Source: an uncultured Erysipelotrichaceae bacterium
Lineage (GTDB): Bacteria; Bacillota_I; Bacilli_A; RFN20; CAG-826
Direction of reading: 5' to 3'
Assembly: GCA_902802905.1 (NCBI GenBank)
Contig: CADCNT010000010.1
Span: 1 to 64,000, forward strand
Length of the DNA stretch: 64,000 bases
Within the stretch, counting starts at the first letter, position 1; every line of letters starts with the position of its first letter. A program made the translations under genes and the position numbers. The notes beneath the pieces are model-generated. The model was given only the letters and a program-made list of their open reading frames with translations, did not search any database and was not told the origin of the DNA. Positions 43,826 to 61,551 of the stretch are shown piece by piece.

Positions 43826-43857
43826 TGTGACACTTTTGTGACAACCACTGTGATAAT
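43826..43857 (+). promoter_or_regulatory. Shared direct-repeat promoter, copy 1
   Basis: TGTGACAC at 43826, TGTGACA at 43837 and TGTGATAAT at 43849, so repeats are 11 and 12 bases apart. GATAAT is the -10. It precedes the first two peptide genes. No -35 at normal distance. Confidence 0.8.
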
Positions 43858-43886
43858 ATAAAATCAACTAAGGAGATATTATGCAT

Positions 43887-44174
43887 ATGAAACAAGATTT
43901 ATTAAAAGGTTTAACTAAAGAACAAATCGCAAAAGTTAAAGCATGCAAAAATCATGAAGAACTATTAGCGTTAGCAAAAGAAGAAGGCATTGAATTAACT
44001 GATGAACAACTATCCGCTATTAGTGGTGGTGGTGTCTGTAGTGTTGCTTCAGATGTTGGAGATTTTTTTAATCCATTTGATTGTCCAGAGTGTGGAAGCA
44101 ACAAAGTTGAGGCAGTGAAAGGCAAAGGTAATCTATTCCAATGCCAAAGCTGCGGATTTAAATGGAGAGAGTAA
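43887..44174 (+). CDS. Nif11-type leader / zinc-ribbon core peptide 1
   Basis: 95-residue precursor. Leader 1-48: MKQDLLKGLTKEQIAKVKAC, then EELLALAKEEGIELTDEQ, ending ISGG, the Nif11-like leader class cut after Gly-Gly by C39 peptidases. Core: a fifth Cys two residues after the GGG, a GDFFNPFDCPECG segment, and a second knuckle CQSCGFKW, so CxxC and CxxC as in a small zinc ribbon. The ATG at 43887 gives the start shared by the family; ATG 43881 is 5 bases after AGGAG and also possible. It lies 7 bases before peptide 2. Expected to be exported by 56874/59062. Confidence 0.85.
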   Translation: MKQDLLKGLTKEQIAKVKACKNHEELLALAKEEGIELTDEQLSAISGGGVCSVASDVGDFFNPFDCPECGSNKVEAVKGKGNLFQCQSCGFKWRE

Positions 44175-44181
44175 AGATTCC

Positions 44182-44475
44182 ATGAAACAAGATTTATTAA
44201 AAGGCTTAACTAAAGAACAAATCGCAAAAGTTAAAGCATGTAAAAACCACGATGAGCTTTTAAGCCTTGCTAAAGAAGAAGGCATTGAGCTCACTGATGA
44301 ACAATTACAAGTCGTTAGTGGTGGCGGCGCCTGCAGTGCTATTTCCAGTATTGGCGATAAAATCAATCCATGGGATTGCCCAAGATGCGGTGCGAACAAA
44401 CCTGTAAAAGATGGCAGGACCTACACTTGCGAGAAGTGCGGCTACACATGGACAGACAATAGTTCACCAATTTAA
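44182..44475 (+). CDS. Nif11-type leader / zinc-ribbon core peptide 2
   Basis: 97 residues, in one unit with peptide 1. The leader is nearly identical in DNA to peptide 1 for the first 60 bases, evidence of recent tandem duplication. Cleavage motif VSGGG. Core: GACS just after GG, then GDKINPWDCPRCG, and CEKCGYTW, ending in a polar tail. It shares the 15-residue linker type of peptides 1 and 7. The core has diverged while the leader has not, as expected for RiPP precursors. Confidence 0.85.
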   Translation: MKQDLLKGLTKEQIAKVKACKNHDELLSLAKEEGIELTDEQLQVVSGGGACSAISSIGDKINPWDCPRCGANKPVKDGRTYTCEKCGYTWTDNSSPI

Positions 44476-44500
44476 TAAAAACGTTAATTATTCTATCGTG

Positions 44501-44529
44501 ACCGAGTGAAATATCTCGGTTTTTCTTTT
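44501..44529 (+). terminator. Terminator after peptides 1 and 2
   Basis: ACCGAG pairs with CTCGGT across TGAAATAT, followed by TTTTCTTTT. It is similar to the terminator at 47912. Confidence 0.75.
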
Positions 44530-44647
44530 GCTTGCTCGTATTCGAGCCACGTGGCGCGTTTCTTTTATTAATAAAAACTAATTACTATCGGGTAGAATTA
44601 ACGTGTTAATAGAGAAAAAAATATGAAAGCAAGATTAATATTTCTTG

Positions 44648-44679
44648 TGTGACACTTTTGTGGCGATTACCGTGATAAC
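44648..44679 (+). promoter_or_regulatory. Shared direct-repeat promoter, copy 2
   Basis: TGTGACAC at 44648, TGTGGCG at 44659 and CGTGATAAC at 44671, with the same 11/12 spacing. It precedes peptide 3. The second repeat has changed slightly. Confidence 0.75.
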
Positions 44680-44707
44680 ATATTATTATTCAAGGAGAAT
44701 ATAGCTT

Positions 44708-44995
44708 ATGAAGCAAGATTTATTAAAAGGTTTAACTGACGAACAAATCGCTAAAGTTCAAGCATGTAAAGATCGCGAAGAATTGTTATTATTAGCAAAA
44801 TCTGAAGGGATTGAACTTACCGATGAACAACTAGAAGCTGTTAATGGTGGAGCGTGTTCTAACACAGATAATTGTCCGCCATGTCCATCATGTCGAAGCA
44901 CTAATGTTAAATTAAGACAATCTGGCAAGATTTTAAAAAAATACAAGTGTAATGATTGTGGTAAAGAGTTCCAAACAGAATATACAAGCAAATAA
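44708..44995 (+). CDS. Nif11-type leader / zinc-ribbon core peptide 3
   Basis: 95 residues. Leader MKQDLLKGLTDEQIAKVQAC with the conserved leader Cys, then EELLLLAKSEGIELTDEQ and VNGG. Here only two glycines and Asn instead of Ser precede the cut. Core: ACSN after GG, then an extra Cys in DNCPPCPSC and a second knuckle CNDCGKEF; Trp is replaced by Phe. It is the most cysteine-rich of the short-linker type. AAGGAG at 44693-44698 sits 9 bases ahead of the ATG. Followed by a 160-base gap with a decayed terminator-like block. Confidence 0.82.
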   Translation: MKQDLLKGLTDEQIAKVQACKDREELLLLAKSEGIELTDEQLEAVNGGACSNTDNCPPCPSCRSTNVKLRQSGKILKKYKCNDCGKEFQTEYTSK

Positions 44996-45105
44996 ACTAA
45001 CTGCCTTCAAACTTAATCAATATAAAATAAAAGCCGGGTGTAAAAGTGAACTAGTCGAACAAAAACAAACATATATCGTTAAAGATTTATTGGAAGCGGA
45101 AGGTC

Positions 45106-45135
45106 TTGTTTAGGAGTTATTTATTTTGCTACAAT
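45106..45135 (+). promoter_or_regulatory. Candidate promoter of the TerB-like gene
   Basis: TTGTTT at 45106-45111 and an extended -10 TGCTACAAT ending at 45135, spaced 18 bases. The TGTG repeat motif of its neighbours is absent, so this gene is probably regulated differently. Confidence 0.5.
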
Positions 45136-45155
45136 AAACTCAAAGGGGAATTAAA

Positions 45156-45590
45156 ATGACGTTTAACGAAATTTACAGCACGTACTTAAATTATTCACAA
45201 GATGAAAAAATCGCACTTGCAAAAGGCGCGACAGTTGAATTGCTTAAGTTTTTCCAAAAAGTTGGCTTGACGGAAGACAATCCTGAATTAGTTCAATCTT
45301 TCTTTCATACATTGCTTTCACTCTTCATTGGTGCAGATGGTAAAATCACCTCTAATGAAGCTGCAATTTATAATGAGATTTTTGGAACAAACTATCGTCC
45401 ATCCGAAATGGTAGGATTTGTTGGTGAAGTTATTAAAGAAACAGATAATTTTATTGACATAGATTCATTTATCGACCAAATGAATCAAGAACAAAAAACA
45501 TTATGCTGCTATATTATTTTAGCGATTATAACAGCTGATGGAAACGTTACCGCTGAAGAATCTGCCGCATTTGAAAGAATCTTAGCTTAA
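45156..45590 (+). CDS. TerB-like protein
   Basis: 144 residues, all-helical. Two acidic motifs, IGADGKITSNEAAIYNEIFG (about 62-81) and TADGNVTAEESAAFERIL, are typical of the TerB/DjlA-like tellurite-resistance fold, which binds metal through these acidic residues. There is no signal peptide or membrane helix. It lies inside the peptide array but under its own promoter, with ribosome site AAAGGGG. A role in metal handling or self-protection is possible but not shown. Confidence 0.7.
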   Translation: MTFNEIYSTYLNYSQDEKIALAKGATVELLKFFQKVGLTEDNPELVQSFFHTLLSLFIGADGKITSNEAAIYNEIFGTNYRPSEMVGFVGEVIKETDNFIDIDSFIDQMNQEQKTLCCYIILAIITADGNVTAEESAAFERILA

Positions 45591-45610
45591 TTTCTAAAGG
45601 TAAACATAAG

Positions 45611-45637
45611 ACACTCCTAAAAAATGGGGTGTTTTTA
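45611..45637 (+). terminator. Terminator after the TerB-like gene
   Basis: ACACTCC pairs with GGGGTGT (one G-T pair), followed by TTTTTA. Confidence 0.7.
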
Positions 45638-45689
45638 TTATAGAACATTATCAAATCAATTATGTTAAAATATCAATAAGGGAATAATA

Positions 45690-46268
45690 ATGGCGAGTGA
45701 TTTAGGAAAAAGCTATAAGCTTAAAAAGATAAAAATTAATTATCCAAATGGTGATGTTTATGAAGGAATGGGCGCTGCCTATTATAATCCGCCATATGAA
45801 CCTCATGGAATAGGTCGATATTATCAAAAGTCTAGTGGAATTACTTTTGAAGCAGACTGGGAGTGGAGAAAGGGACCAGACTTTAAATCGATAAGAATAA
45901 TAAATAAGCCATTAGGAAAATCGTTTGTTATCTTACAGGTTTACGCTGGTGAGATTTATAGCGATTTAGTTCATCTTGATATAATCGAGGCAAAAGAAGG
46001 AGAATACGCCTTTAAAGATTTGCCATCTATCATCTTAGAACCACATAGTTGGTCAAAACATCAATTTGTTATAAAGAAAGTAAGCGACGAAGAATTGATT
46101 TTTGATTTTACCGGTCCGAAAGTGGATCACGGTAATTTTATCAACAAGCGCGCACCTAAGAATGAGCCAAAAGAATATGAATCAACTGTATCATCACATA
46201 TCATTTGGGATCACGATGATGAATATGATGTGAGCCAAACCGCAAAAATCGAACTATTATATTTTTAA
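45690..46268 (+). CDS. Hypothetical protein with MORN-like N-terminus
   Basis: 192 residues, no signal peptide. Residues 14-60 read like MORN repeats (YPNGDVYEGMG, then HGIGRYYQKSSGITFEADW). The remainder is beta-rich with no known motif and ends KIELLYF. MORN repeats usually mediate membrane or protein contact. The gene is single, between TerB and peptide 4, and lacks the shared promoter motif. AAGGGA precedes the ATG. Function unknown. Confidence 0.6.
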   Translation: MASDLGKSYKLKKIKINYPNGDVYEGMGAAYYNPPYEPHGIGRYYQKSSGITFEADWEWRKGPDFKSIRIINKPLGKSFVILQVYAGEIYSDLVHLDIIEAKEGEYAFKDLPSIILEPHSWSKHQFVIKKVSDEELIFDFTGPKVDHGNFINKRAPKNEPKEYESTVSSHIIWDHDDEYDVSQTAKIELLYF

Positions 46269-46335
46269 AAGGTAGCTGTCGTCGTCCAAATCCACTTATC
46301 TGGTTTTGCACAAAACGACTTATTCAACATAGATG

Positions 46336-46358
46336 AGGCCTCCGCGTGAGGTCTTTTC
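46336..46358 (+). terminator. Terminator before peptide 4
   Basis: AGGCCTC pairs with GAGGTCT around CGCGT, then TTTTC. Together with about 25 bases of upstream flank it is a near copy of the terminator at 43783. Confidence 0.75.
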
Positions 46359-46359
46359 T

Positions 46360-46391
46360 TGTGGCACATTTGTGACAAATGGTGTGATAAT
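46360..46391 (+). promoter_or_regulatory. Shared direct-repeat promoter, copy 3
   Basis: TGTGGCAC at 46360, TGTGACA at 46371, TGTGATAAT at 46383. It directly abuts the upstream terminator and precedes peptide 4. Confidence 0.8.
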
Positions 46392-46418
46392 ATAAAAATC
46401 AACAAGGAGACTTGCGAT

Positions 46419-46715
46419 ATGAAACAAGAATTATTAAAAGGATTAACTGAAGAACAAATTGCTAAAGTCAAGAAATGCAAGAACTACGACGAACTATTAG
46501 AACTTGCCAAAGCTGAAGGTGTTGAATTAACTGACGAACAATTAAAAATTGTTAGTGGCGGTGGCAAAGACTATTGTCAATCTACACCAAGCGACCCGTG
46601 TATGTATTGCGGATCAAAAGACGTCAAATATAAAAGAGAAACAACTGGTGTCTTATTTGATTACCAATATTGTGGCACATGTAGAACATGCGGAAGATCC
46701 TTTTATATTTTTTAA
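46419..46715 (+). CDS. Nif11-type leader / zinc-ribbon core peptide 4
   Basis: 98 residues from the ATG at 46419, which follows AAGGAG by 9 bases; the longer frame to 46359 starts inside the promoter and is rejected. Leader MKQELLKGLTEEQIAKVKKC and EGVELTDEQ, ending VSGGG. Core: the post-GG Cys is shifted to position 4 (KDYCQS), then CMYCGSKD and a second knuckle CGTCRTCGRSF with an additional Cys. The extra Cys in the second knuckle gives it seven core-side cysteine options, more than the others. Single-gene unit. Confidence 0.83.
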   Translation: MKQELLKGLTEEQIAKVKKCKNYDELLELAKAEGVELTDEQLKIVSGGGKDYCQSTPSDPCMYCGSKDVKYKRETTGVLFDYQYCGTCRTCGRSFYIF

Positions 46716-46761
46716 TTATAAAAGCGTAATAACCAAATACCCCTTTATATTATTAAATTTG

Positions 46762-46785
46762 AAGCCGTTTAAAAGCGGCTTTTTG
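46762..46785 (+). terminator. Terminator after peptide 4
   Basis: AAGCCG pairs with CGGCTT across TTTAAAAG, followed by TTTT. It abuts the next shared promoter. Confidence 0.75.
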
Positions 46786-46817
46786 TGTGGCACATTTGTG
46801 ACAGATACTGTGATAGC
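46786..46817 (+). promoter_or_regulatory. Shared direct-repeat promoter, copy 4
   Basis: TGTGGCAC at 46786, TGTGACA at 46797, TGTGATAGC at 46809. Precedes peptide 5. Confidence 0.8.
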
Positions 46818-46845
46818 ATAGAATTAACAAAGGAGAACTTTGAAA

Positions 46846-47115
46846 ATGAAAGAAGAATTATTAAAAGGTTTAAGCGAAGAACAAATCGCGAAAGTTAAAA
46901 AATGTAAAAGCCAAGATGAATTATTAAAACTCGCTAAAGAGGAAGGCATTGAATTAACTAGTGAGCAAATCGAAGCCGTCAGTGGTGGCGGATGTTTCTC
47001 AAGCATGAAATGCCCAAATTGTGGTTCAAAAGATTTTAGAAAATTGCCAAATTACCAAATAAGTGGATGTTCAACTTATAAATGTAATGCATGCGGTCAC
47101 GAGTGGTCTTTATAA
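46846..47115 (+). CDS. Nif11-type leader / zinc-ribbon core peptide 5
   Basis: 89 residues from the ATG at 46846 (AAGGAG 10 bases upstream; the TTG at 46840 is in the spacer). Leader MKEELLKGLSEEQIAKVKKC, EGIELTSEQ, VSGGG. Core is the shortest: Cys immediately after GGG (GCFSS), then CPNCGSKDF, an additional Cys (SGCSTY), and CNACGHEW. Single-gene unit ending in the terminator at 47174. Confidence 0.84.
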   Translation: MKEELLKGLSEEQIAKVKKCKSQDELLKLAKEEGIELTSEQIEAVSGGGCFSSMKCPNCGSKDFRKLPNYQISGCSTYKCNACGHEWSL

Positions 47116-47173
47116 AATAAACACGATAAGTGAATTAATAAAATACTATCAAAAGATTTATACCGTATAGATT

Positions 47174-47198
47174 AGGCCTTTTCGGAGGCCTTTTTTTG
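47174..47198 (+). terminator. Terminator before peptide 6
   Basis: AGGCCT at 47174-47179 pairs with AGGCCT at 47186-47191, followed by seven T. Same relative position to the promoter as at 43783 and 46336. Confidence 0.75.
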
Positions 47199-47228
47199 TG
47201 GCACTTTTGTGACAATACCTATGATAGT
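47197..47228 (+). promoter_or_regulatory. Shared direct-repeat promoter, copy 5
   Basis: TGTGGCAC at 47197, TGTGACA at 47208, TATGATAGT at 47220. Precedes peptides 6 and 7. Confidence 0.8.
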
Positions 47229-47256
47229 ATATGAATATCAAAGGAGAATTTTGAAA

Positions 47257-47541
47257 ATGAAAGAAGAATTACTTAAAGGTTTAACTGAAGAACAAATCGC
47301 TAAAGTAAAAGCTTGCAAAAACCAAGATGAATTGTTAGCGTTAGCCAAACAAGAAGGCGTTGAACTCACAGATGAACAATTAGCCGCTGTTTCCGGTGGT
47401 ATCTGCACAAGTACACCTACCTTTATCTGCCCAAAATGTGGTTCTGCCAAAATTAAAACTAGATATAATGAAAACTCTATTGCTGAATGGTGGAATAATA
47501 CCTGTCAAGATTGTGGATTTGTCTGGATTGTTAATAAATAA
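47257..47541 (+). CDS. Nif11-type leader / zinc-ribbon core peptide 6
   Basis: 94 residues from the ATG at 47257 (AAGGAG 10 bases upstream); the longer frame to 47209 would start in the promoter. Leader MKEELLKGLTEEQIAKVKAC, EGVELTDEQ, VSGG followed directly by ICTS. Core: CPKCGSAK, an aromatic insertion (EWWNN) and CQDCGFVW. In one unit with peptide 7, 18 bases apart. Confidence 0.84.
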   Translation: MKEELLKGLTEEQIAKVKACKNQDELLALAKQEGVELTDEQLAAVSGGICTSTPTFICPKCGSAKIKTRYNENSIAEWWNNTCQDCGFVWIVNK

Positions 47542-47559
47542 TAAAGGAGAATTTTGAAA

Positions 47560-47847
47560 ATGAAAAAAGATTTATTCAAAGGTTTAAGCGAAGAACAAAT
47601 CGCTAAAGTAAAAGCTTGTAAAAATAGTGAAGAACTCTTGGCTTTAGCTAAAGCAGAGGGCATTGAACTTACAGATGAACAACTAGCCGCGATTAGTGGT
47701 GGTGGCGCTTGTAGTGTTGTTTCAGATCTCGGAGATAAAATCAATCCTTTTGATTGCCCATTCTGTGGATATAACGGTAAATTTGATAAAGACGGTAATG
47801 AAATTACCTGTCCAAAATGTGGAAAAACTTGGAGAGATAACGGTTAA
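47560..47847 (+). CDS. Nif11-type leader / zinc-ribbon core peptide 7
   Basis: 95 residues from the ATG at 47560 (AAGGAG 10 bases upstream). Leader MKKDLFKGLSEEQIAKVKAC, EGIELTDEQ, ISGGG. Core: ACSV after GG, GDKINPFDCPFCG, CPKCGKTW. It shares the long-linker subtype with peptides 1 and 2, so that subtype occurs at both ends of the array. Terminator at 47912 ends the unit. Confidence 0.85.
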   Translation: MKKDLFKGLSEEQIAKVKACKNSEELLALAKAEGIELTDEQLAAISGGGACSVVSDLGDKINPFDCPFCGYNGKFDKDGNEITCPKCGKTWRDNG

Positions 47848-47911
47848 TATTTAAAGCTTTTTGATATTCGAAAATAAGTTCTCGAATAAAAAAAGAATAA
47901 GCCTCTAAAAA

Positions 47912-47938
47912 GCCGAGTGCAAAATCTCGGTTTTTTTG
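47912..47938 (+). terminator. Terminator after peptides 6 and 7
   Basis: CCGAG pairs with CTCGG across TGCAAAAT, followed by seven T. It abuts the next shared promoter. Confidence 0.75.
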
Positions 47939-47970
47939 TGGCACTTTTGTGACATAGGTATTGATACAAT
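47937..47970 (+). promoter_or_regulatory. Shared direct-repeat promoter, copy 6
   Basis: TGTGGCAC at 47937, TGTGACA at 47948, ATTGATACAAT at 47960. Precedes the lipase-like/lipoprotein operon and so ties it to the peptide genes. Confidence 0.78.
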
Positions 47971-48012
47971 AATAAGCGAAGGGAAAATAATTATTATTTT
48001 TAAGAGAGTTAT

Positions 48013-50016
48013 ATGAAAAATTTTGCATTAATGTTCTTCCTCTCATGTGGGCTTGTCACTGGTGTTGCTAGTGGTGGGGCTCCTACTAGAGCAAATGAAA
48101 CTTATGAAGTGAATAAGTATTCTTTTTTCTACGCTCCTGATAGTAGATATGAAACTGCACCTCACTTCACCGCCGATATTTATTTTTCCCAATCCTATTT
48201 TGAACACTCATCCTATGAATATGACACACATTTAGCTACTGCTTCCCTTTGCTTAGCGATGTCCACTTATCCTGACTATACTTCAGCATATGATGATGAA
48301 TGGTATCAAAGCCAACCTAAGTTTATTAAGAATACATTGGAGACTATTGGCTTTAATTCATTTACTACTAATCAAGATTACGTAGAAACTGCGAGAATGG
48401 ATTCTATTGGTTTGGCCATTGCTAAAAAAGAATTTAATAATTATACAGTTATTGCTGTGGCACCTAGATCTGGTGGCTATTATAGAGAATGGGCAAACAA
48501 TATGCATTTAGGCGATGGCACTAAGTCAGACTATATGCATGAAGGCTGGTATAACGCAGCTAATAAGTTAATTGATTTTGTTATTAATTACGTTAAAGAT
48601 AACCAAGTCACTGGACGTGTGAAATTATGGATGACAGGTTATTCTAGAGGCGGAGCAACCGCTAATTTGGCTGCCGGTTTAATTGATGCCCGTTTAGATA
48701 AGGGTGAAAACTTATTAGGTAATCAAGCCAGTTTAACTAGAGAAGATGTCTATGCTTATACATTTGAAGCGCCTCAAGGAGCGAATGTAAATTCTAAAAC
48801 CATTAAACTCCCTAAAGATGCCATTTATGGCAATATCTTTAATGTAATTCATCCTAATGATATCGTTCCTAAAGTTGCGATGGCGGAGTATGGCTTTACT
48901 CGCTTTGGAATTGATAAATTCATTACCACTAAATTTTATGATCCTAGCAATTACGACAGTAATCGCCGTGTCTTTAATAAGTTATTTGATATCGTCAATC
49001 AAAATGATGAAGTCAAATACAGCGGTGATAATTTTGGAATGTATGGTCTTAAAATTGAAGACTTCTTAAGAATTATTACCGTGATTCCTGCGATTGTTGG
49101 TTTAATTACTGGTGACCTTGGTCAAGCAAAAGACAAAACTAAGGCCAATTATGACGCCAATATTGCATCAACCTTATTCATTGAAGAAATTACCTCAGAA
49201 CTAGGTTCTAGAGATAACTATGTTAAGAAATATCAACCCTCTTTAGAGAATTTGATGCTTATTATGAAGAACGAACAGTACACTGATATACCTTCTACTC
49301 CAGGTTTAGTGTTAAGAATGTTTATCCTTACTGTTTTATCTAGTTCTCTTTTAGGTAATTTTAATTCGATACAAAAGGCTATTAAGAGTAGCGTAGGTTC
49401 TTATGCGTCTGCAATCGTGGACCTCCTTGATGTTTTAGTTGATCCAATGGTGGATGCATATTGGGAAAGACCAAATGAACTTATCTCTATTGCAGTGCAT
49501 ATTGGTGATATCTTCCAAAACCATTATGCGGATATCATTCTCGCCCATGTGCAAGCACAAGATAGTTACTATATTGATGACTATAACAAGAATAATGAAG
49601 AAAAGATTAGTGTTGTTTCTTTTAGAAATAACGCTGATTTTGGAAGAATGAAATTCTTCGGCTTTAATGATTTAGGCTTAAGATTAGAGAGCAAGAACGG
49701 CACTCGTGTTGTTAACGTTGAAGGACATCTTGTTGGCAAGAGCGATATTGAGCAATGCAATAAAGAATATGCGGTTGGCTATTATAGCTATATTACCGAA
49801 GAGAAGATGGAACTATTTATGCCTATCAATAAGAAATATAACATCTCGATGAAGTCTTATTCTAAAAAGCCACGTCACCGCGTTGAATATTGGGCTTACT
49901 ATCAATTCTTTGCTTTAGATAATCGCGGAGTAAAAAGAGCGCAACTAGACCATAAAAAAGACACAGCCTACTTTAACTCTGATCGCTTTAAACGCGACGT
50001 TAATGTCAAACTATAA
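48013..50016 (+). CDS. Secreted alpha/beta-hydrolase, lipase-like
   Basis: 667 residues with a signal peptide (MKNFALMFFLSCGLV to RANE). The nucleophile elbow WMTGYSRGGATANL has Ser211 in GxSxG. A likely catalytic Asp/His region follows (TFEAPQGAN and VIHPNDIVPKVAMAEYGF near 281), as in class 3 lipase-type folds. The C-terminal 300 residues are mostly helical and unassigned. The gene has the shared promoter and overlaps or abuts the lipoprotein gene behind it, so the two act together. A role in membrane-lipid attack, processing or immunity for the exported peptides is an open inference. Confidence 0.78.
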   Translation: MKNFALMFFLSCGLVTGVASGGAPTRANETYEVNKYSFFYAPDSRYETAPHFTADIYFSQSYFEHSSYEYDTHLATASLCLAMSTYPDYTSAYDDEWYQSQPKFIKNTLETIGFNSFTTNQDYVETARMDSIGLAIAKKEFNNYTVIAVAPRSGGYYREWANNMHLGDGTKSDYMHEGWYNAANKLIDFVINYVKDNQVTGRVKLWMTGYSRGGATANLAAGLIDARLDKGENLLGNQASLTREDVYAYTFEAPQGANVNSKTIKLPKDAIYGNIFNVIHPNDIVPKVAMAEYGFTRFGIDKFITTKFYDPSNYDSNRRVFNKLFDIVNQNDEVKYSGDNFGMYGLKIEDFLRIITVIPAIVGLITGDLGQAKDKTKANYDANIASTLFIEEITSELGSRDNYVKKYQPSLENLMLIMKNEQYTDIPSTPGLVLRMFILTVLSSSLLGNFNSIQKAIKSSVGSYASAIVDLLDVLVDPMVDAYWERPNELISIAVHIGDIFQNHYADIILAHVQAQDSYYIDDYNKNNEEKISVVSFRNNADFGRMKFFGFNDLGLRLESKNGTRVVNVEGHLVGKSDIEQCNKEYAVGYYSYITEEKMELFMPINKKYNISMKSYSKKPRHRVEYWAYYQFFALDNRGVKRAQLDHKKDTAYFNSDRFKRDVNVKL

Positions 50017-50029
50017 GGAGGAAAAGAAG

Positions 50030-51115
50030 ATGAAAAGAAATGCTTTATTATTAATTCCTCTAGTGGTGGGACTTGTCTCTTGTAGTAACTCTTCTAGTGT
50101 TCCAAATCGAGAGACTGTGAATAGATTAAAAGAATTGTTAAGTAAACAAGACTTGTCTGAATTCTACACTAAAACAGTAAATGGTATTTATTCACAAGAA
50201 TATGATGTTTTAGACATTGAAAAAGACGGAGAAGAAAGAACAACAAGTTATTTCAGCTATCTTGGAGTTGGTCTATTCGGTTTCTATTATGATCTTAGCA
50301 AGAATCAATATGACTCTATTGTTGATGAAAATGGTGATATTGATACCTTTGATGCGATTTCTACTGGGCAAGGATCATATGGCATCATGCAAGTATCCAG
50401 AACCATGTATTTTAATAGAGAAGGTAGTTCCGAGGCCAAAATTAATAACCTCGATATTTCACAAAATGTTAATCTTAAAACTGTCGAACAAGATCTCTGG
50501 GTCGAAAATAGTCTACTTGTTAGCGATGATGGTGTCTTTCAGTATGAAACTCGTCAAGAATTCTCCGCTATTATAAATAGAGAATTATTATTTAACTCTG
50601 TTTCTACTAGAACATTCCGTGATATTTTTTCAAAAGTAGATTTATTTGACACTCCTGGGAATGTTGAACATTTAGATAAGTTATATTTTTCCATCTGTCG
50701 AGATTTAGCAAACAAAAGCGATAAGCAAATTAGTAATTTCATAAAAGCAAATCAAGTTTCTATTCAAGAAGAACAAAATAATGTTGAAGTAAGTTTTGTT
50801 TACACTAACGAAGATCTTGAAGAAGAGGAAATGGATTATATTTTCCCTGGTGCGATTAAAGGAACACTTTATTTTGATAAAGAAACTTATCAATTCTTAA
50901 ACTTCGAATACGAAATGGTATATCAAGTCGAAACCTATGATAGGGAAACTGGTAGCATTAAGGTCATTAATACAAAATTCACTTGTTCTGGAGAATCCAC
51001 TCGTGAAATACCACATGATACAGTAGAACCAATTAACCCAACAATCTATGATGATGTTGCTCAGTTTTTAGAAGATGTAAATGAAAATGTCGTGCCACCA
51101 AGTATTGTCATATAG
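50030..51115 (+). CDS. Lipoprotein paired with the lipase-like protein
   Basis: 361 residues from the ATG at 50030, 9 bases after AAGGAGG (50014-50020); the ATG at 50003 precedes that site and would overlap the upstream gene. Lipobox VSCS near residue 18. The body is beta-rich (repeated strand pairs around VDENGDIDTFDAIS and YLNFEYEMVYQ) with no catalytic motif; it may be a chaperone, inhibitor or receptor for its neighbour. Unknown family. It ends shortly before an orphan copy of the shared promoter motif. Confidence 0.65.
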   Translation: MKRNALLLIPLVVGLVSCSNSSSVPNRETVNRLKELLSKQDLSEFYTKTVNGIYSQEYDVLDIEKDGEERTTSYFSYLGVGLFGFYYDLSKNQYDSIVDENGDIDTFDAISTGQGSYGIMQVSRTMYFNREGSSEAKINNLDISQNVNLKTVEQDLWVENSLLVSDDGVFQYETRQEFSAIINRELLFNSVSTRTFRDIFSKVDLFDTPGNVEHLDKLYFSICRDLANKSDKQISNFIKANQVSIQEEQNNVEVSFVYTNEDLEEEEMDYIFPGAIKGTLYFDKETYQFLNFEYEMVYQVETYDRETGSIKVINTKFTCSGESTREIPHDTVEPINPTIYDDVAQFLEDVNENVVPPSIVI

Positions 51116-51126
51116 TTTGTTATCTA

Positions 51127-51158
51127 TTTGGCACTTTTGTGACATTTCATGTGCTTCA
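51127..51158 (+). promoter_or_regulatory. Shared direct-repeat element, orphan copy 7
   Basis: TTTGGCAC at 51127, TGTGACA at 51138 and TGTGCTTC at 51150 keep the 11/12 spacing, but the -10 is not GATAAT; TAAAAT at 51163-51168 is the nearest substitute. No protein gene starts directly behind it. Confidence 0.6.
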
Positions 51159-51169
51159 AAGGTAAAATA

Positions 51170-51232
51170 TTGCCAAAGCTTCGTGCGATGGCGTTTGAAA
51201 ACAGTATCGAAAGCTCGGTACTGTTTTGTTTT
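51170..51232 (+). ncRNA. Possible small RNA between orphan promoter and terminator
   Basis: Between the orphan promoter element (51127-51158) and a strong hairpin terminator (51201-51232) lie about 60 bases without a translatable frame. A short RNA could be made from here. Equally, the hairpin may simply end the lipoprotein transcript. Inference only. Confidence 0.25.
51201..51232 (+). terminator. Strong Rho-independent terminator
   Basis: ACAGTATCGA pairs with TCGGTACTGT (one G-T pair) around AAGC, followed by TTTGTTTT. Confidence 0.85.
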
Positions 51233-51294
51233 ATAAAGTGGCACACCTATTCTTCTTTTTGAAAGAATGAATGTTTTGATAAAATGAAATTGTT

Positions 51295-52005
51295 ATGAGA
51301 AGAATATATTTCTCTTGGATAATCGCGGTACTTGGAATTTTTGGCACTGTTTATGGTGCTTATTTGCTCATTTATCACTTTAATCACGGAAATTGGCTTT
51401 CCGCTTTCAGTTTAGTATTACTTATTATTGGCATAGTGTGTTTATTGCTTTCTATTCCTGTGTGGATTATTTCCTATATAAACAATAAGAAAATGAAGGA
51501 TGAACCAACTCATCCACTTGTAAAAGAAGAGCCTAAAAAAGAAGTAGTGGAACAACCTAAAGAAGAAAAAATAGAACCAGTGCAAAGACAAAAACCAGCA
51601 CGCAGCGGCTATATTTCTAGGTCTGATGATAAAACTTACACAAGTTATGTCCCAACTACGGTTTATGTAAAACAAGTCGGTTATGGACCTGTTTTAAGAG
51701 TGGAAGGTAATCGTATTTTAAATATGCGTTCTAATACGTATTATCGTATTGAAGGGAATATGGTTAACCAAGAAGGATCTGGTCCAGTGTTTGAAATAGT
51801 GGGTAACCAAATTAAAAATGCTTTTGGTGGCTACTTATTTGAATTAAGTGGCAGCAATATTAATAAAGTTTATGGTGGCTTTTATGCCTCTGTTAGCGGG
51901 AACTACATCTCCTTATATGATTTATCAATGAAATATGAGATGACAGATAGTTTGTCTAAGAAGCAAATACTCGTTGTTGCTGCCTTACTTTTTAGGAGTT
52001 TATAA
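51295..52005 (+). CDS. Membrane protein with repetitive beta-rich C-terminal domain
   Basis: 236 residues, unknown. Two membrane helices (about 8-28 and 36-61) are followed by a charged Pro/Lys/Glu-rich linker (residues 66-102). The C-terminal part (about 125-215) is a series of short beta units of 10-13 residues: VLRVEGNRILN, YYRIEGNMVNQ, VFEIVGNQIKN, LFELSGSNINK, FYASVSGNYIS. It looks like a small beta-helix facing the cytoplasm or the wall. No ribosome binding site; a TAAAAT lies about 10 bases before the ATG, so the mRNA may be leaderless. A half copy of the shared motif (GTGGCAC) is at 51238. Confidence 0.62.
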   Translation: MRRIYFSWIIAVLGIFGTVYGAYLLIYHFNHGNWLSAFSLVLLIIGIVCLLLSIPVWIISYINNKKMKDEPTHPLVKEEPKKEVVEQPKEEKIEPVQRQKPARSGYISRSDDKTYTSYVPTTVYVKQVGYGPVLRVEGNRILNMRSNTYYRIEGNMVNQEGSGPVFEIVGNQIKNAFGGYLFELSGSNINKVYGGFYASVSGNYISLYDLSMKYEMTDSLSKKQILVVAALLFRSL

Positions 52006-52009
52006 AAAA

Positions 52010-52037
52010 TAATCGCCTTATGAGGCGATTTTCTTTT
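52010..52037. terminator. Terminator between convergent genes
   Basis: AATCGCCT (52011-52018) pairs perfectly with AGGCGATT (52023-52030), with T runs beyond. It serves the 51295 gene and possibly the minus-strand epimerase gene. Confidence 0.8.
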
Positions 52038-52043
52038 GTTTCT

Positions 52044-53027
52044 TTAGATTAGATTTTTTTTGAATTTATATTTTATGAAGTGATGAAATCTCTTATTCTT
52101 ATCGAATAAAATGCTTTTTGTTCTATCCAGTTGTGGCTCAATTGCAATTCCTCTTCTGGCTTCTTGTTTTGAATTATTAGCGACAAAGCCTGGAGCAAAG
52201 TTATCAGTGTATATAACAACCGCATCTAAACTTGTTGATATATTAAGTTGGTAACGCTCATTTTTCAGTGTTATTTGACTGATATTTGGGTTAACTTTAT
52301 CAAAAACCCAACAGTGGTCAAATCCTTTTAGCATTCCGTTATTTATCTCTTTGTTATCGATATCTATGCCTAGTTTCTTTTCTTTTCGGAAATCTAAATA
52401 AGAAGGAACCGCTTTGCTTTTGGTGAAAATAAGATCTTTTGGATCTAACTGTAAATAATTAGACGCTTTTACTTGTAAGCTGAGATTATTTACTCCAGCA
52501 TCTCCTAAACAAAAGTAGGAGTGGTTAGTAAGAGATATTGGACATTTTCCATCTAGCGAACAATCTAACACTATTTTGATGTCTGGTTTATCGTTTGCTA
52601 TTTCATATCTCACTTTGATTAATGCGTTAGAAGGAAAACCTGACTCTCCAGCTTTAGATAAGTATGAGAATGTGATAGATGTGTTTCTTTTGTTTTCTTT
52701 TACTACATACTTAAATTTTTGATTTGATAAACCATCTATTCCTCCATGGAGGGTTTTACTGTCTTCGTTAGCGGCTAAACGATATATATGTCCATCAATT
52801 TTGATAACACTGTCTTTAACTCTACCTGCGACTCTACCAATGGTTTTGCCGTGATAGACATCGTTTCTTACAAAATCTTTTATGTATTTTGGGCGATAAA
52901 GCATCTCCACGTCATCGTACACAATATAGAAAAGTGAAGCTCCTAAATCACATAGGGTGATAACCATATGAGAGTTATTAGTAACTTGGATGAATTTTAG
53001 ATTTTCTTTTTCAAAGGTTTTAATCAT
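52044..53027 (-). CDS. galM: Aldose 1-epimerase (galactose mutarotase)
   Basis: 327 residues, cytoplasmic. Interconverts alpha and beta anomers of aldoses so that kinases can use them. Family marks: LCDLGASLFYI, NDVYHGKTIGRVAGR, KTLHGGIDGLSNQKF with an active-site His, SLTNHSYFCLG with the second His, and near the end AIEPQLD with the catalytic Glu. A single gene divergent from 53095. Probably supports the sugar pathways of this region. Confidence 0.88.
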   Translation of the reverse strand: MIKTFEKENLKFIQVTNNSHMVITLCDLGASLFYIVYDDVEMLYRPKYIKDFVRNDVYHGKTIGRVAGRVKDSVIKIDGHIYRLAANEDSKTLHGGIDGLSNQKFKYVVKENKRNTSITFSYLSKAGESGFPSNALIKVRYEIANDKPDIKIVLDCSLDGKCPISLTNHSYFCLGDAGVNNLSLQVKASNYLQLDPKDLIFTKSKAVPSYLDFRKEKKLGIDIDNKEINNGMLKGFDHCWVFDKVNPNISQITLKNERYQLNISTSLDAVVIYTDNFAPGFVANNSKQEARRGIAIEPQLDRTKSILFDKNKRFHHFIKYKFKKNLI

Positions 53028-53094
53028 ATTGCTACCTTAAATTATAACTTAGATTGTTGTGATTATAACCATCAAACATTACAATTAAAAAGCA

Positions 53095-53838
53095 ATGAAT
53101 AAAATTATTTACAATTATCACACTCATACATCTAGATGTGGCCACGCCGTTGGTCTAGATGAAGAATATGTTATTAAAGCAATTGAGTTAGGAATTAAGC
53201 GTCTTGGGTTTTCTGACCATATCTTTTTTCCGGGTTTATCTCAAAAAGGTGTGAGAATGAACGAAGATGAAGTAGATGGATATTTAAAGTCTATTCATCA
53301 ATTAAAAGAAAAATATAAAGATCAAATAGATATCAAAGTTGGCTTTGAGGCAGAGTACTTGCCAATGTTTATTGATGAATATAAAGATTTAGTAAAATCT
53401 GGAAAAATTGATTATCTAATTCTCGGTCAACATTTTGGTCAATTTGCTAACAAGATTGATATTTATAAAGAAGATGTTATTAGATACGCATTAGATGTAA
53501 AAGGAGCCATTTCCGTTGGGATTTTCACATATATAGCCCATCCAGATCATTTCCTTTTAGGAGTGAAGAAGTGGAATGAAAACTGTGAGAAAGCCGTTCG
53601 CATTATCATGCAAGCATGTGAAGAAACTGGTACTCCAATTGAGATTAATATTTTAGGCATAAGAGAACATAGGCCATATCCAAGTAAAGAACTATTTAAA
53701 ATTTCTAAAGAATATAATGTGAAATATGTACTAGGTGTTGATGCGCATAAGCCAGAAGATTTTAATCAAAAAGATATCGATCGTGCATTTACCTTCCTAA
53801 AAGAATTAGACATAGATATATTAAATTTAAAAATATAA
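53095..53838 (+). CDS. PHP-domain phosphatase, histidinol-phosphatase-like
   Basis: 247 residues. The PHP metal site is clear: YHTHTSRCGHA (His9, His11, His17), FSDHIFFPG, the Glu in GFEAEYLP, YIAHPDHF and a late GVDAHKPEDF. Similar to HisJ/HisK histidinol-phosphatases, which remove phosphate from histidinol phosphate in histidine synthesis. No other his gene is in the window, so another phosphoester substrate is possible. No clear ribosome binding site. Confidence 0.83.
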   Translation: MNKIIYNYHTHTSRCGHAVGLDEEYVIKAIELGIKRLGFSDHIFFPGLSQKGVRMNEDEVDGYLKSIHQLKEKYKDQIDIKVGFEAEYLPMFIDEYKDLVKSGKIDYLILGQHFGQFANKIDIYKEDVIRYALDVKGAISVGIFTYIAHPDHFLLGVKKWNENCEKAVRIIMQACEETGTPIEINILGIREHRPYPSKELFKISKEYNVKYVLGVDAHKPEDFNQKDIDRAFTFLKELDIDILNLKI

Positions 53839-53849
53839 TTAAATTATAT

Positions 53850-53882
53850 TGTGGCACATTTGTGACAATATATGTGATACCA
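53850..53882 (+). promoter_or_regulatory. Shared direct-repeat promoter, copy 8
   Basis: TGTGGCAC at 53850, TGTGACA at 53861, TGTGATACCAT at 53873. It precedes the maturation/export operon. The -10 ends about 11 bases before the ATG at 53893, so transcription should start within a few bases of the start codon. Confidence 0.82.
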
Positions 53883-53892
53883 TATTTTCAAC

Positions 53893-55065
53893 ATGCTAGA
53901 AAAAGAAATTCTTACATTGATGTATCAAGATTTTGAAGTTCTTACTTTTGAAGTGGACTACGAAAAAGAAAGAATCAGAATTGTTGAAAAGCTAGAACAT
54001 TTCGATAAAGCACCTTATGGCGTAACCGAAGATAGTTTTAAACTGATGAGATTTTTTAACGCTCGCACTATATCCGCACAAAGAAGTGACTATGAAGCAA
54101 TTCTAAAAGCTATGAAATGCAAGAGTGGTTTTGAACTATCTTTTAAAGGACATGGGCTTTCTTTAGCCAATCATTATTGGTTTAAAAGAGAAGGCGAAAA
54201 TTTAAAATATGGTGACATTAACTTCTTTACTAATAAGTGGGATGATACATTCGGTAGAGCGGTATTAAGTGGAGACTACGAAGCTTTAAAGACATGTGAC
54301 TTAAATGTTCCTGATATAGTTATCTCTGGTTGGGGCGTTAAGGGGTGGATTTATGATAACGGACCTAAATTATATAAATTAGGAATCCATAATGAACATC
54401 CAGAAGAAGCAATATGTGAAGTTTTAGCCGCTAAACTCGCTAGTAGATTATTAAGCCCAGAAGAAGTGCTCCAATATGAGCTAAAGACGATTAACGGGAA
54501 GTATGCTTCTGTGTCTAAGCCATTAATCACTGTGGATGAAGAATTAGTACCTCTATCAATTCTTTTACCTCCTGCTTGGTATTTAATGTTTAAAGAGAAA
54601 AACGCAAATAGAGATCTGAGTAAAGAATTCTTTAAGAAAGTTGAAAACTATGACATGCCTGAGTTATATCAATTCTTTGTCAAAGTTTCTTGCTTACGTA
54701 CGTTATGCTTTGTCTCTGATTTGCATTTCGATAACCTCTCTGCAATTAGAAATATGAAAACAGGAAAGCTGAAAATGGCGCCTCTATATGATTTAGGTGG
54801 AGCGTTTGGTTCTTCTGAATCAGGTAAGAGTATGATTACAAACGCCAATAAAGGTACTTTATTAATAATCTATTTTATGTTTGGTGATTTATCTCCAGAT
54901 TGGGATTATTCTTGGTACAAGCCAGAAAAACTAGTTGGAATTGAAGATGAGATTAGAGAATATTTATCAAAGAGTGATTTCTATAACCCTGAAATTATCG
55001 ACTGTGTAATTGAGATTTATCATCAACAAAAGAAAACTTTAGATGAAATAGCGAAAAAGATTTAA
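53893..55065 (+). CDS. HipA-like kinase-fold protein in the peptide maturation operon
   Basis: 390 residues, cytoplasmic. The C-terminal half resembles HipA/CtkA-type kinases: KLYKLGIHNEHPEEAICEVLA (helix that contacts ATP), YASVSKPLI, and a catalytic/metal segment VSDLHFDNLSAIRN followed by LAPLYDLG-like APLYDLGGAFGS. The residues 1-130 are unassigned. It is not paired with a HipB antitoxin. Instead it is the first gene of the operon with a radical SAM protein and two exporters, under the shared promoter. It may modify the peptides or regulate the system (inference). No ribosome site: probably leaderless. Confidence 0.7.
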   Translation: MLEKEILTLMYQDFEVLTFEVDYEKERIRIVEKLEHFDKAPYGVTEDSFKLMRFFNARTISAQRSDYEAILKAMKCKSGFELSFKGHGLSLANHYWFKREGENLKYGDINFFTNKWDDTFGRAVLSGDYEALKTCDLNVPDIVISGWGVKGWIYDNGPKLYKLGIHNEHPEEAICEVLAAKLASRLLSPEEVLQYELKTINGKYASVSKPLITVDEELVPLSILLPPAWYLMFKEKNANRDLSKEFFKKVENYDMPELYQFFVKVSCLRTLCFVSDLHFDNLSAIRNMKTGKLKMAPLYDLGGAFGSSESGKSMITNANKGTLLIIYFMFGDLSPDWDYSWYKPEKLVGIEDEIREYLSKSDFYNPEIIDCVIEIYHQQKKTLDEIAKKI

Positions 55066-55078
55066 AAGGAGAAAGAGT

Positions 55079-56473
55079 ATGTTTTATCGTTTAAAAGATA
55101 ATGTTGCATTAAGAAAGTGGAGATATGTCGACCGTGCGATTTATAGAAAAGGCAGTGAAAACGCAACCGGCATTTCTCAAAAAGAATTTGATATACTTCT
55201 TCTTTGTGATGGAAAGCATGATATCGAACCATCTCCATATCTTGCTAATTTATTATCTCAACGGCTTATTGAAGAATGTAAAGAAGGTGATGAGGCTAAT
55301 CCCTGGTCACTTTTACATGAATATGATAACTATTACTTCCCAAAGATGAATTTAATGATTACTGGGAAATGTAATCTTAACTGTTTGCACTGTTTCAATG
55401 CGAAAGATAACGCTCCGCTTAATACTGAATTAACTTATGAAGAAGTTTTAAATATTTTGGATCAAGCACGTGATATTGGAGTGCATGCTTTTACCATTAC
55501 AGGTGGGGAGCCGTTAGTTCATCGTCGTTTCTTAGATATTATTAGAGCGATTTATGAAAGGGACATGTTTGTCTTTGAATTGAACACTAATGGCTTACTT
55601 ATCACTCAAAAAATGCTTGATGTCTTTAAAGAGTTAAAATGTTACCCATTAATTAAAATTTCTTTTGATGGAGTTGGCTATCATAACTGGATGCGACAAA
55701 ATCCAAGAGCGGAAGATTTAACTGTTAAAGCGATTCAATTATGTATTAAGAATGGCTTTAGAGTGAAAGCACAAGTGCAAGTTAATCGTAAAAATGTCGA
55801 CGTGATGTTAGATACCGCCAAACTTCTAAATGAAATGGGTGTTGATGAGATGAGAATTATTAGAACTACTGAAGCACCTAGATGGGAAAAGAATTCTCCA
55901 GATTCTTCTTTGCCAATTGAAGAGTACTATCAAAGAATGTTGGAGTTCGCTAAAACATATACTCAAAGCGATATGGAAATGACTATTGATATCTGGCAAC
56001 TTATCAGACTATACCCAAGACACAAATCCTATGATTTAGTTCCTATTGCCTGTTCTAAAGATGAATTTAATATCCGTATTCCAATGTGCAAAGGTAATCG
56101 TGGTATGATTGCGGTTTCTTCTAGCGGAGAAGCTGTACCTTGTTTACAGATGTCTGGTTGGTTTATGGAACGCGGAATTAGCTTAGGTAATGTTCTTAAA
56201 ACTCCTTTAAAAGAATTAGTAAAAGATAGCCCATATCTTAATTTAGCAATGGCACCTTTGCTTAAGCAAATTTTGGAAAATGATAAATGTGGTAACTGTA
56301 AATACTATAAAGTTTGTGCCGGTGGTTGCCCTGCCTTAGGACTGCTATATTCTAAAAACGGAGACTACTATCATGAAGATATAACGAAATGTATTTTCTT
56401 TGAAAATGGTTGGTATGATAGAATAGTTCAAGAATTAAACGAATGGCATCTAATTAAAGCATTGGATCTTTAA
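55079..56473 (+). CDS. Radical SAM/SPASM peptide-modifying enzyme
   Basis: 464 residues. Residues 1-85 resemble a PqqD/RRE-type leader-binding domain (LKDNVALRKW, GISQKEFDILLLCDG). The 4Fe-4S site is CNLNCLHC (Cys98, Cys102, Cys105), followed by TITGGEPLVHRRF for S-adenosylmethionine binding. The C-terminal SPASM region has further cysteines (CKGNRGMIAVSSSGEAVPC and CGNCKYYKVCAGGCPALG, then C). Such enzymes build thioether, C-C or related links in RiPP precursors. AAGGAG precedes the ATG, 13 bases after the HipA-like gene. Likely substrates are the seven Nif11-leader peptides. Confidence 0.9.
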   Translation: MFYRLKDNVALRKWRYVDRAIYRKGSENATGISQKEFDILLLCDGKHDIEPSPYLANLLSQRLIEECKEGDEANPWSLLHEYDNYYFPKMNLMITGKCNLNCLHCFNAKDNAPLNTELTYEEVLNILDQARDIGVHAFTITGGEPLVHRRFLDIIRAIYERDMFVFELNTNGLLITQKMLDVFKELKCYPLIKISFDGVGYHNWMRQNPRAEDLTVKAIQLCIKNGFRVKAQVQVNRKNVDVMLDTAKLLNEMGVDEMRIIRTTEAPRWEKNSPDSSLPIEEYYQRMLEFAKTYTQSDMEMTIDIWQLIRLYPRHKSYDLVPIACSKDEFNIRIPMCKGNRGMIAVSSSGEAVPCLQMSGWFMERGISLGNVLKTPLKELVKDSPYLNLAMAPLLKQILENDKCGNCKYYKVCAGGCPALGLLYSKNGDYYHEDITKCIFFENGWYDRIVQELNEWHLIKALDL

Positions 56474-56485
56474 TGTTAAATTTTT

Positions 56486-56869
56486 ATGAAAAAGCAAGAC
56501 GTTCATATTTCTAGCCCAGAAGAATTAAACAAGCACTTACAACATTCTTCACCGGTAACTTGGATAATTTTGTTTGCGACAATCGCAATCCTTATCGCGT
56601 TTTTTGCTTGGTCATTTATCTATAAATTAAAGGTGAAAATTACTGGTACCGCTACTGTTAATAGTGGTGTTGCTACTTTAGTTGTTGATCAACAATCTTC
56701 TTCGCAATTAAAAGAAGGGCAGACTGTTCATATTTCTAATGCTGAAGGACTCTTATCATATAACGACCAAGACGAACCAATCGTCAGCAATTTGACGTTA
56801 GATGATGGAGAATATTCTTTCTATATCGTCGTAAAAGAAATTAGACCAATTGATTTTGTAATCAAATAA
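56486..56869 (+). CDS. Miniature HlyD-like membrane protein of the exporter
   Basis: 127 residues: a short cytoplasmic start, one membrane helix (about 24-49), then a small beta-rich extracytoplasmic domain with VKITGTATVNSGVATLVV and SSSQLKEGQTVHISN, as in the beta-barrel base of HlyD/NHLM secretion proteins. NHLM-type fusion proteins are usually around 250-300 residues, so the coiled-coil and lipoyl parts appear reduced. It sits just before the peptidase exporter, the usual place of this component. The ATG has no ribosome site; a start by coupling is likely. Confidence 0.68.
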   Translation: MKKQDVHISSPEELNKHLQHSSPVTWIILFATIAILIAFFAWSFIYKLKVKITGTATVNSGVATLVVDQQSSSQLKEGQTVHISNAEGLLSYNDQDEPIVSNLTLDDGEYSFYIVVKEIRPIDFVIK

Positions 56870-56873
56870 AAAG

Positions 56874-59048: not shown

Positions 59049-59061
59049 AAAGGAGAAATAG

Positions 59062-61245: not shown

Positions 61246-61257
61246 TTGGAGGCTTTT

Positions 61258-61551
61258 ATGGAACATAAACTAGAAAACGGAGTATTAACATTATTTTTCA
61301 AAGGAGATCTTAACTCCAGCAATTCTGAACAAATAGAAGAAGAGATTGAAAAAATCTTAGGCGCAAATAAATTCCAAAGTATAGTGCTTGATTTTGCAGA
61401 ATTACGTTATATTTCATCTGCTGGATTAAGAATCATTCTTAAGATTAAAAAAGAACATGATGACACCAAAGTCGTTAAGGTCAATAAAGATGTTTATGAT
61501 ATCTTTGAAATGGTTGGCTTTAGCAGTGTCATCACCATTGAACGAGCTTAA
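61258..61551 (+). CDS. STAS-domain protein (anti-sigma factor antagonist type)
   Basis: 97 residues from the ATG at 61258 (GGAGG at 61247-61251; the TTG at 61246 is before this site). The fold marks are VLTLFFKGDLNSSNS, SIVLDFAELRYISSAGLRII, with the phosphorylatable Ser in SSAG, and VYDIFEMVGFSSVI. These proteins switch sigma factors or transporters in partner-switching systems. It is the last gene of the maturation/export operon, just before a terminator. It could regulate the exporter or signal back to expression (inference). Confidence 0.85.
   Translation: MEHKLENGVLTLFFKGDLNSSNSEQIEEEIEKILGANKFQSIVLDFAELRYISSAGLRIILKIKKEHDDTKVVKVNKDVYDIFEMVGFSSVITIERA

Follow-up and report, generated by a model that had tools for sequence, protein, structure and literature searches.

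We hypothesise that a repeated promoter element in an uncultured Erysipelotrichaceae bacterium is the operator of a dedicated regulon, and that the protein recognising it is a response regulator whose effector domain is AfsR-like. The window, by which we mean the whole 64,000-nucleotide stretch analysed (GenBank assembly GCA_902802905.1, contig CADCNT010000010.1), is contig C10 of a 1.54-Mb assembly that is 95.6% complete (G000, the own genome). The element has an 18-bp core, TGTGRCACWTTTGTGACA, and precedes genes for leader peptides, a lipase-like operon and a maturation/export operon. Very probably it is an operator-promoter that is bound by the orthologue of a single protein, P0001 (G000:C8:26382-27134), which would switch on the regulon through the housekeeping RNA polymerase. 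The analysis shows the element, how it is conserved, which genes it heads, that it is linked to and co-occurs with the regulator, and the predicted fold; the binding itself, the sign of regulation (taken to be activation), phosphorylation and co-expression are the parts of this proposal that we infer.

Eight copies of the core lie within 43826-53867 and, at up to three mismatches, no other was found in the window, exactly as the original prediction had listed them; shuffled windows gave a mean of 0.19 and a maximum of 2 matches to the 18-mer at this threshold. The exact pattern TGTGRCACN3TGTGACA occurs at six positions (43826, 46360, 46786, 47197, 47937 and 53850) and in none of 100 shuffles, while allowing three mismatches adds only 44648 (two mismatches) and 51127 (one mismatch). 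A 34-mer that includes the -10 region matches seven of the eight copies at up to three mismatches, with an expectation of 0.00. Apart from the six exact cores, 44648 is degenerate in its second repeat and 51127 lacks a -10.

All copies are on the forward strand. The copy at 43826-43859, with an exact core and a full promoter, has its heptamers at 43826-43832 and 43837-43843 and its -10 (TAATAT) at 43854-43859, and heads the peptide genes at 43887 and 44182. At 44648-44681 the second repeat reads TGTGGCG and the extended -10 is good (three mismatches to the 34-mer); the start codon of the peptide gene that it heads, 44708, is 60 bp away, the same distance as in relatives. Exact copies at 46360-46393 and 46786-46819 head the peptide genes at 46419 and 46846, respectively, and the copy at 47197-47230 (core exact, one mismatch to the 34-mer) heads those at 47257 and 47560. 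The lipase-like operon (48013-51115) follows the copy at 47937-47970 (core exact, two mismatches to the 34-mer), and the maturation/export operon (53893-61551) follows the exact copy at 53850-53883; in relatives this order of element and export operon recurs directly after a response regulator gene. The copy at 51127-51144, which consists of the core only (one mismatch) and was missed by the 34-mer search, is probably degenerate and non-functional, because a -10 is missing from the usual place and a strong terminator (51198-51227) lies downstream of it. It was also observed that the T-tracts of intrinsic terminators of preceding genes run into the box at 46335-46360 and 47174-47197 and, by eye, at 46765-46786 and 47915-47937. 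Since the terminators abut the element, the units resemble insulated terminator-promoter-gene cassettes.

Alignment of 66 peptide promoters shows that conservation is concentrated at positions 1-7 and 12-18, which form two direct-repeat heptamers (TGTGRCA and TGTGACA) with a period of 11 bp. Ten of the 18 core positions are invariant, position 5 is A or G, as is its repeat partner, position 16, and the flanking positions 20, 22, 23 and 32 are random. T26, G27, T29, A30 and T34 are the sole near-invariant bases of the -10 region, the second heptamer is a constant 10 bp from TANNAT, and a -35 consensus is absent. The third TGTGATA, which had been noted as containing the -10, is an extended -10 (TRTGnTANNAT) together with the two leading bases of the -10 itself. 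We rejected it as a third binding repeat because TRTGNTANNAT is enriched also upstream of genes without the element (9 occurrences against 2.3 in shuffled sequence, with 0 for a scrambled control), and the operator is therefore reduced to the two heptamers and their 11-bp period. If the hexamer TANNAT is set at -12 to -7, the heptamers span approximately -40 to -23, with the first 11-bp unit at -40 to -30 and the second at -29 to -19. This geometry, together with the AfsR/OmpR-type fold of the candidate regulator described below, supports the earlier proposal that two 7-bp repeats replace the -35 in the manner of PhoB/OmpR boxes.

The own genome was covered by motif and profile searches of its contigs and by the reading of selected stretches. 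It holds 17 matches to the 34-mer (up to three mismatches) and 21 to the core (up to two mismatches), against 0 in the reversed control, and with only 21 sites in 1.54 Mb we rejected a general promoter signature; copies at many unrelated promoters, the outcome that the original prediction had named as its own refutation, did not appear. Judged from sequence, the element defines a dedicated regulon and no general promoter class. Ten of the 21 core sites precede leader-peptide genes, and approximately half lead to non-peptide secreted, envelope or signalling genes. The perfect element at C1:22916 heads an operon of a STAS protein, a SpoIIE-HATPase_c_2 fusion and a leader peptide (L043:8985-11343, equivalent to G000:C1:22984-25342); C12:35648 precedes an AbiEii-type nucleotidyltransferase and a peptide, C1:101913 a glycosyltransferase-like protein, C6:9432 an ion channel, and C4:49190, C12:41919 and C19:5352 secreted proteins or lipoproteins. 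At C8:16809 the site is followed by a peptide-gene remnant, with a leader that starts MKRVLLKGLT and then breaks off, and by a secreted protein. The three sites that remain belong to the window, where one heads the lipase-like operon, another heads the maturation/export operon and the third is the degenerate copy 51127. Beside these, we observed that near-identical promoters to C8:16809 head intact peptide genes in G008, G009 and G016, the promoter of the remnant being perfectly placed (L041:8811-8928), and that two AbiEii/DUF2204-type nucleotidyltransferase genes adjoin element-headed peptide genes on C12 (L039:8886-9614 and L040:15111-15857).

A profile of the 13 own peptides (alignment A1) detected peptide genes across the genus (19 genomes). 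In the regions read, protein homology alone located 100 such genes, 67 of which have the core (up to five mismatches) 57-64 bp before the start codon; those that do not are mostly second genes of tandem operons. In the reversed control of these regions the closest match never had fewer than six mismatches. Genome-wide specificity and this fixed distance both bear out the view that peptides, lipase-like operon and export operon share one regulon, which is wider than had been proposed, with about half of the 21 sites at other genes.

Which protein might bind the element? A Trans_reg_C search of the own genome found no canonical OmpR-type regulator. Its receiver-domain matches number four, three of them in two large kinase-type proteins by the C6 peptide gene and one in P0001, the only stand-alone response regulator. 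P0001 is thus proposed by elimination, because it has the only stand-alone receiver, Trans_reg_C gave no match and one gene with sigma70 region 2 was found. The receiver (PF00072, 9e-22) carries D7, D8, D51, T79 and K99, which are invariant in alignment A2 and include a phosphorylatable Asp. The gene directly follows that of a LytS-type histidine kinase (PF06580) with about six or seven hydrophobic segments and ends a tightly packed six-gene run, an operon that also encodes a helix-turn-helix protein, P0002. Given the kinase type a LytTR regulator was considered for P0001, and rejected as a LytTR match is absent. A model of full-length P0001 reached a predicted template modelling score (pTM) of 0.52, and because its structure matches were dominated by the receiver, the C-terminal domain was modelled alone (predicted local distance difference test 87, pTM 0.84). 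The best match to this model is AfsR (Foldseek 1.2e-4; 8k60, Z 11.4, 115 aligned, 2.9 Å), followed by EmbR (Z 11.2) and then PhoB (1qqi, Z 10.3, 88 aligned, 2.1 Å); a sequence profile gave weak matches to EmbR (0.006), DrrB (0.04) and AfsR (0.22). The effector domain is predicted from the modelled fold to be a winged helix of the AfsR/PhoB type. P0001 lacks a complete, all-helical BTA domain: the protein stops about 36 residues past the wing, and the Pfam hits include no BTAD model. It is therefore AfsR-like in fold but no Streptomyces antibiotic regulatory protein (SARP).

Two observations concern other receiver proteins. A phosphorelay-like set on C6, comprising a 120-aa HPt-like protein and two large receiver proteins, adjoins an element-headed peptide gene (L042:2130-6725), and the peptide clusters of G014:C42 and G011:C6 also hold receiver-containing proteins of similar size.

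The regulator and the element occur together across genomes. Within the genus, eleven genomes have orthologues (at least 66% identity) and G003 has a contig-end fragment, with sites in all twelve; sites but no detected orthologue were found in G004 (one weak site), G007 (73% complete) and G017 (69% complete), and four genomes have neither. Among 177 further genomes of the family, 20 have both, 4 a site only, 15 the regulator only and 138 neither (Fisher 2e-13). The corresponding counts for peptide-free genomes outside the genus are 8, 0, 11 and 134 (1e-8), and the co-occurrence persists (p 1.6e-8) after stratification by genus, which was meant to reduce the effect of common descent.

Linkage was surveyed at 32 named genome loci with a regulator of at least 60% identity. 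In eight rumen genomes the element follows the regulator gene at 6-85 bp and in the same orientation, and at four or five other loci it precedes an operon of small gene, kinase and regulator. The 450 kb around these regulators hold 20 sites (control 0), in contrast to 2 sites in 861 kb around more distant regulators. Kinase and regulator genes stand directly before an element-headed peptide-radical SAM-exporter operon in G011, G013, G014 and G016, and in the peptide-free G047 before an element-headed STAS-SpoIIE-STAS operon, after which a second element precedes a glycosyltransferase similar to C1:101959. The pairing of regulator and element is constant although the neighbouring operons vary (ABC transporter, giant secreted proteins, lipoproteins), which is what one would expect of a cognate operator. 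The statement that no response regulator is encoded nearby is accurate for the own contig, the only candidate being on C8, but in relatives that candidate lies directly upstream of the same export operon. As to a regulator gene that carries the same element, which had been proposed as a check, relatives have the element either after the regulator or before the kinase-regulator operon, the own genome offering only a weak match. As a side observation, made by eye at L175, L176, L367 and L368, nonribosomal peptide synthetase-like and small phosphopantetheinyl-transferase-like proteins adjoin the regulator in G002 and G008, and in G009 and G018 lie behind an element-headed lipoprotein.

Several points weigh against P0001 as the binder. 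Pfam finds no winged helix in P0001 and, among the 13 orthologues, marginal matches in five (best 0.0011), which leaves the assignment to depend on fold prediction. For autoregulation in the own genome there is a single weak core, C8:22245, TGTGGCACTTTTGTGCGC, in the promoter region of the P0001 run, with three mismatches and a -10 one base closer, a match at about chance level genome-wide (about 0.19 per 64 kb at up to three mismatches), yet in the right intergenic gap. Outside the genus, 15 genomes with the regulator lack a strict site, and in four genomes with sites an orthologue went undetected, two of these being under 85% complete. Moreover, the core can also be read as an imperfect inverted repeat, TGRCAC-N4-GTGACA, in which five of six pairs are kept in 61-66 of 66 sites, and, taking the sequence alone, a symmetric dimer on this dyad may be compatible with it.

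That dyad, present in nearly all sites, is the basis for proposing another DNA-binding protein, for example a symmetric homodimer, with an indirect link to the response regulator if both belong to a single surface system that is mobile or co-inherited. The peptide/export cluster does travel with the kinase, regulator and STAS/SpoIIE genes, and there are other helix-turn-helix proteins, among them P0002 of the regulator operon. However, the dyad pair 5-16 is unmatched in all 66 sites and T1-G2 has no mirror, which weakens a pure inverted-repeat operator, whereas the direct repeat is fully kept, with a purine at position 5 of both repeats. Nor does co-inheritance sit easily with a regulator co-occurrence that persists in peptide-free genomes and with adjacent operons that differ around a constant regulator and element, and we regard this explanation as improbable. 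It might also be argued that an alternative sigma factor recognises the element as its promoter, TGTGRCAC serving as the -35, and that a STAS/SpoIIE/HATPase partner switch possibly sets this factor free, since the regulon includes a STAS and a SpoIIE-HATPase_c_2 gene behind the perfect element at C1:22916, a typical partner-switch set. Such a factor is unlikely because a single sigma70 region 2 gene (PF04542), encoding a 434-aa protein of primary type, was found in the 95.6% complete genome; furthermore, 18 contiguous conserved bases exceed the contact of sigma region 4, and the extended -10 is of the ordinary kind, being enriched at element-free promoters too. We consider this highly improbable. 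Slighter still, in our estimation, is the chance that the copies are alike merely from recent duplication of terminator-promoter-gene cassettes, with no specific regulator. Many copies do head paralogous peptide genes in tandem arrays at similar distances, but the core also stands in front of genes unrelated to these (lipase, STAS-SpoIIE, lipoproteins, ion channel and glycosyltransferase) and, in peptide-free genomes, of non-peptide operons, and ten core bases are invariant amid random flanking positions. Unrelated targets and an invariant core among random flanks contradict duplication as the sole cause.

We return to the proposal that the element is bound by the P0001 orthologue. A multi-pass kinase of the LytS type would phosphorylate the P0001-type regulator, and the winged-helix domains of two regulator molecules would sit side by side, head-to-tail, on the two heptamers. 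This tandem dimer would cover the -35 position, substitute for the missing -35 contact and recruit the housekeeping RNA polymerase, with the strong extended -10 being used together with the regulator in the absence of a -35. Leader peptides, the radical SAM/NHLP-type export operon, the lipase-like operon, the STAS-SpoIIE module and lipoproteins would thereby be switched on. A further idea, which we regard as doubtful, is that the circuit is self-inducing: one or more exported zinc-ribbon mini-proteins might be sensed by the multi-pass kinase, which through the regulator would induce their own peptides, exporter and surface proteins, and the STAS-SpoIIE-HATPase proteins might be a feedback device with no alternative sigma factor to control.

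The genes predicted to be under this control in the window are all on the forward strand. The first peptide gene (43887-44174) encodes a Nif11-like leader with a double glycine and a Cys4 zinc-ribbon-like core (Nif11 6e-5, just under the Pfam cut-off; alignment A1). The peptides at 44708-44995, 46419-46715, 46846-47115 and 47257-47541 also belong to A1, as do those at 44182-44475 and 47560-47847, each the second gene of a tandem operon and without an element of its own. Scores against curated models are 23.7 bits for Nif11 (cut-off 23.8) and 22.5 for TIGR03798 (cut-off 32.3). The cores after the double glycine, approximately 45-50 residues long, were seen to resemble small Cys4 zinc ribbons (CxxC...CxxC) in 12 of the 13 own peptides (43887-47847 and loci L039-L043), and such cores are unusual for a family of the ribosomally synthesised and post-translationally modified peptide (RiPP) kind. 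The lipase-like operon encodes a secreted protein with a Lipase_3 domain (48013-50016; Pfam 7e-10) and a putative lipoprotein (50024-51115) with a signal-like N terminus, MKRNALLLIPLVVGLVSC, and no match in the Pfam scan. The maturation/export operon begins with a HipA_C-like protein (53893-55065; 0.0073, weak and below cut-off), the gene for which is conserved in relatives, where it separates the response regulator from the export genes. There follow a radical SAM/SPASM maturase (55079-56473; Pfam 1.8e-20), a short secretion protein with kinship to the N-terminal part of the NHLP-system HlyD (56486-56869; TIGR03794 2.8e-8, partial), an NHLP-type C39 peptidase/ABC exporter (56874-59048; TIGR03796, 840 bits, cut-off 853), a second NHLP-type ABC exporter subunit (59062-61245; TIGR03797, 654 bits, cut-off 709) and, as the last gene, a STAS-domain protein (61246-61551; Pfam 1.3e-14).

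What began as a motif seen by eye is now a testable regulator-operator pair, conserved among many gut and rumen bacteria, most of them uncultured. The constant 18-bp operator lets the regulon be traced in every related genome, and with it orphan peptide genes that lie far from the exporter, so that a control circuit can be defined from genome sequence in bacteria known mainly from metagenomes. The operator architecture is already known; the type of regulator (an AfsR-like winged-helix response regulator with a BTA stub), the operator sequence, the group of host bacteria and the regulon itself appear to be new and did not turn up in the literature searched. The searches returned nothing relevant on SARP-like response regulators of Firmicutes that use direct repeats, on Nif11 combined with a zinc ribbon, or on Nif11 systems of rumen Erysipelotrichaceae, which proves no absence. 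Finding an afs-box/pho-box architecture in low-GC Bacilli, with an AfsR-like candidate regulator and a RiPP-like family, recalls the natural-product role of the Streptomyces SARPs.

Compared with known systems, the peptide genes and export operon are like the NHLP/Nif11-type RiPP export systems (TIGR03794/03796/03797 and TIGR03798) in having a double-glycine leader, a C39-peptidase ABC exporter, a second NHLP ABC subunit, a short HlyD-like protein and a radical SAM maturase, but their scores are just or well below the curated cut-offs, their cores are Cys4 zinc-ribbon-like and they share a dedicated operator. In the pho box, two 11-nt repeats each have seven conserved and four less conserved bases (PMC4415409), and the element shares with the PhoB system these direct repeats, a receiver-bearing response regulator, a replaced -35 and, as predicted here, head-to-tail winged-helix binding. 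The differences are that the heptamer is TGTGRCA rather than CTGTCAT, the kinase is of the LytS type (PF06580), the targets are unrelated to phosphate, and the effector is missed by Trans_reg_C in the own protein and closer in fold to AfsR/EmbR. In the afs box of the Streptomyces AfsR-afsS promoter, two 11-bp repeats at -40 to -19 lie over the -35; AfsR occupies them as a dimer arranged side by side, and sigma region 4 rests on the bound protein (PMC10936776). Our element resembles such SARP operators in its tandem 11-bp repeats over the -35 position, its start at about -40 and its poor or absent -35, and also in that the candidate winged helix matches AfsR best of the solved structures and that the targets include natural-product genes. 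Unlike them, it has TGTGRCA in place of the Streptomyces heptamers, a strong extended -10 and a low-GC host from a rumen Bacilli lineage, and its candidate regulator belongs to the two-component response regulators and has no more than a stub of the BTA domain.

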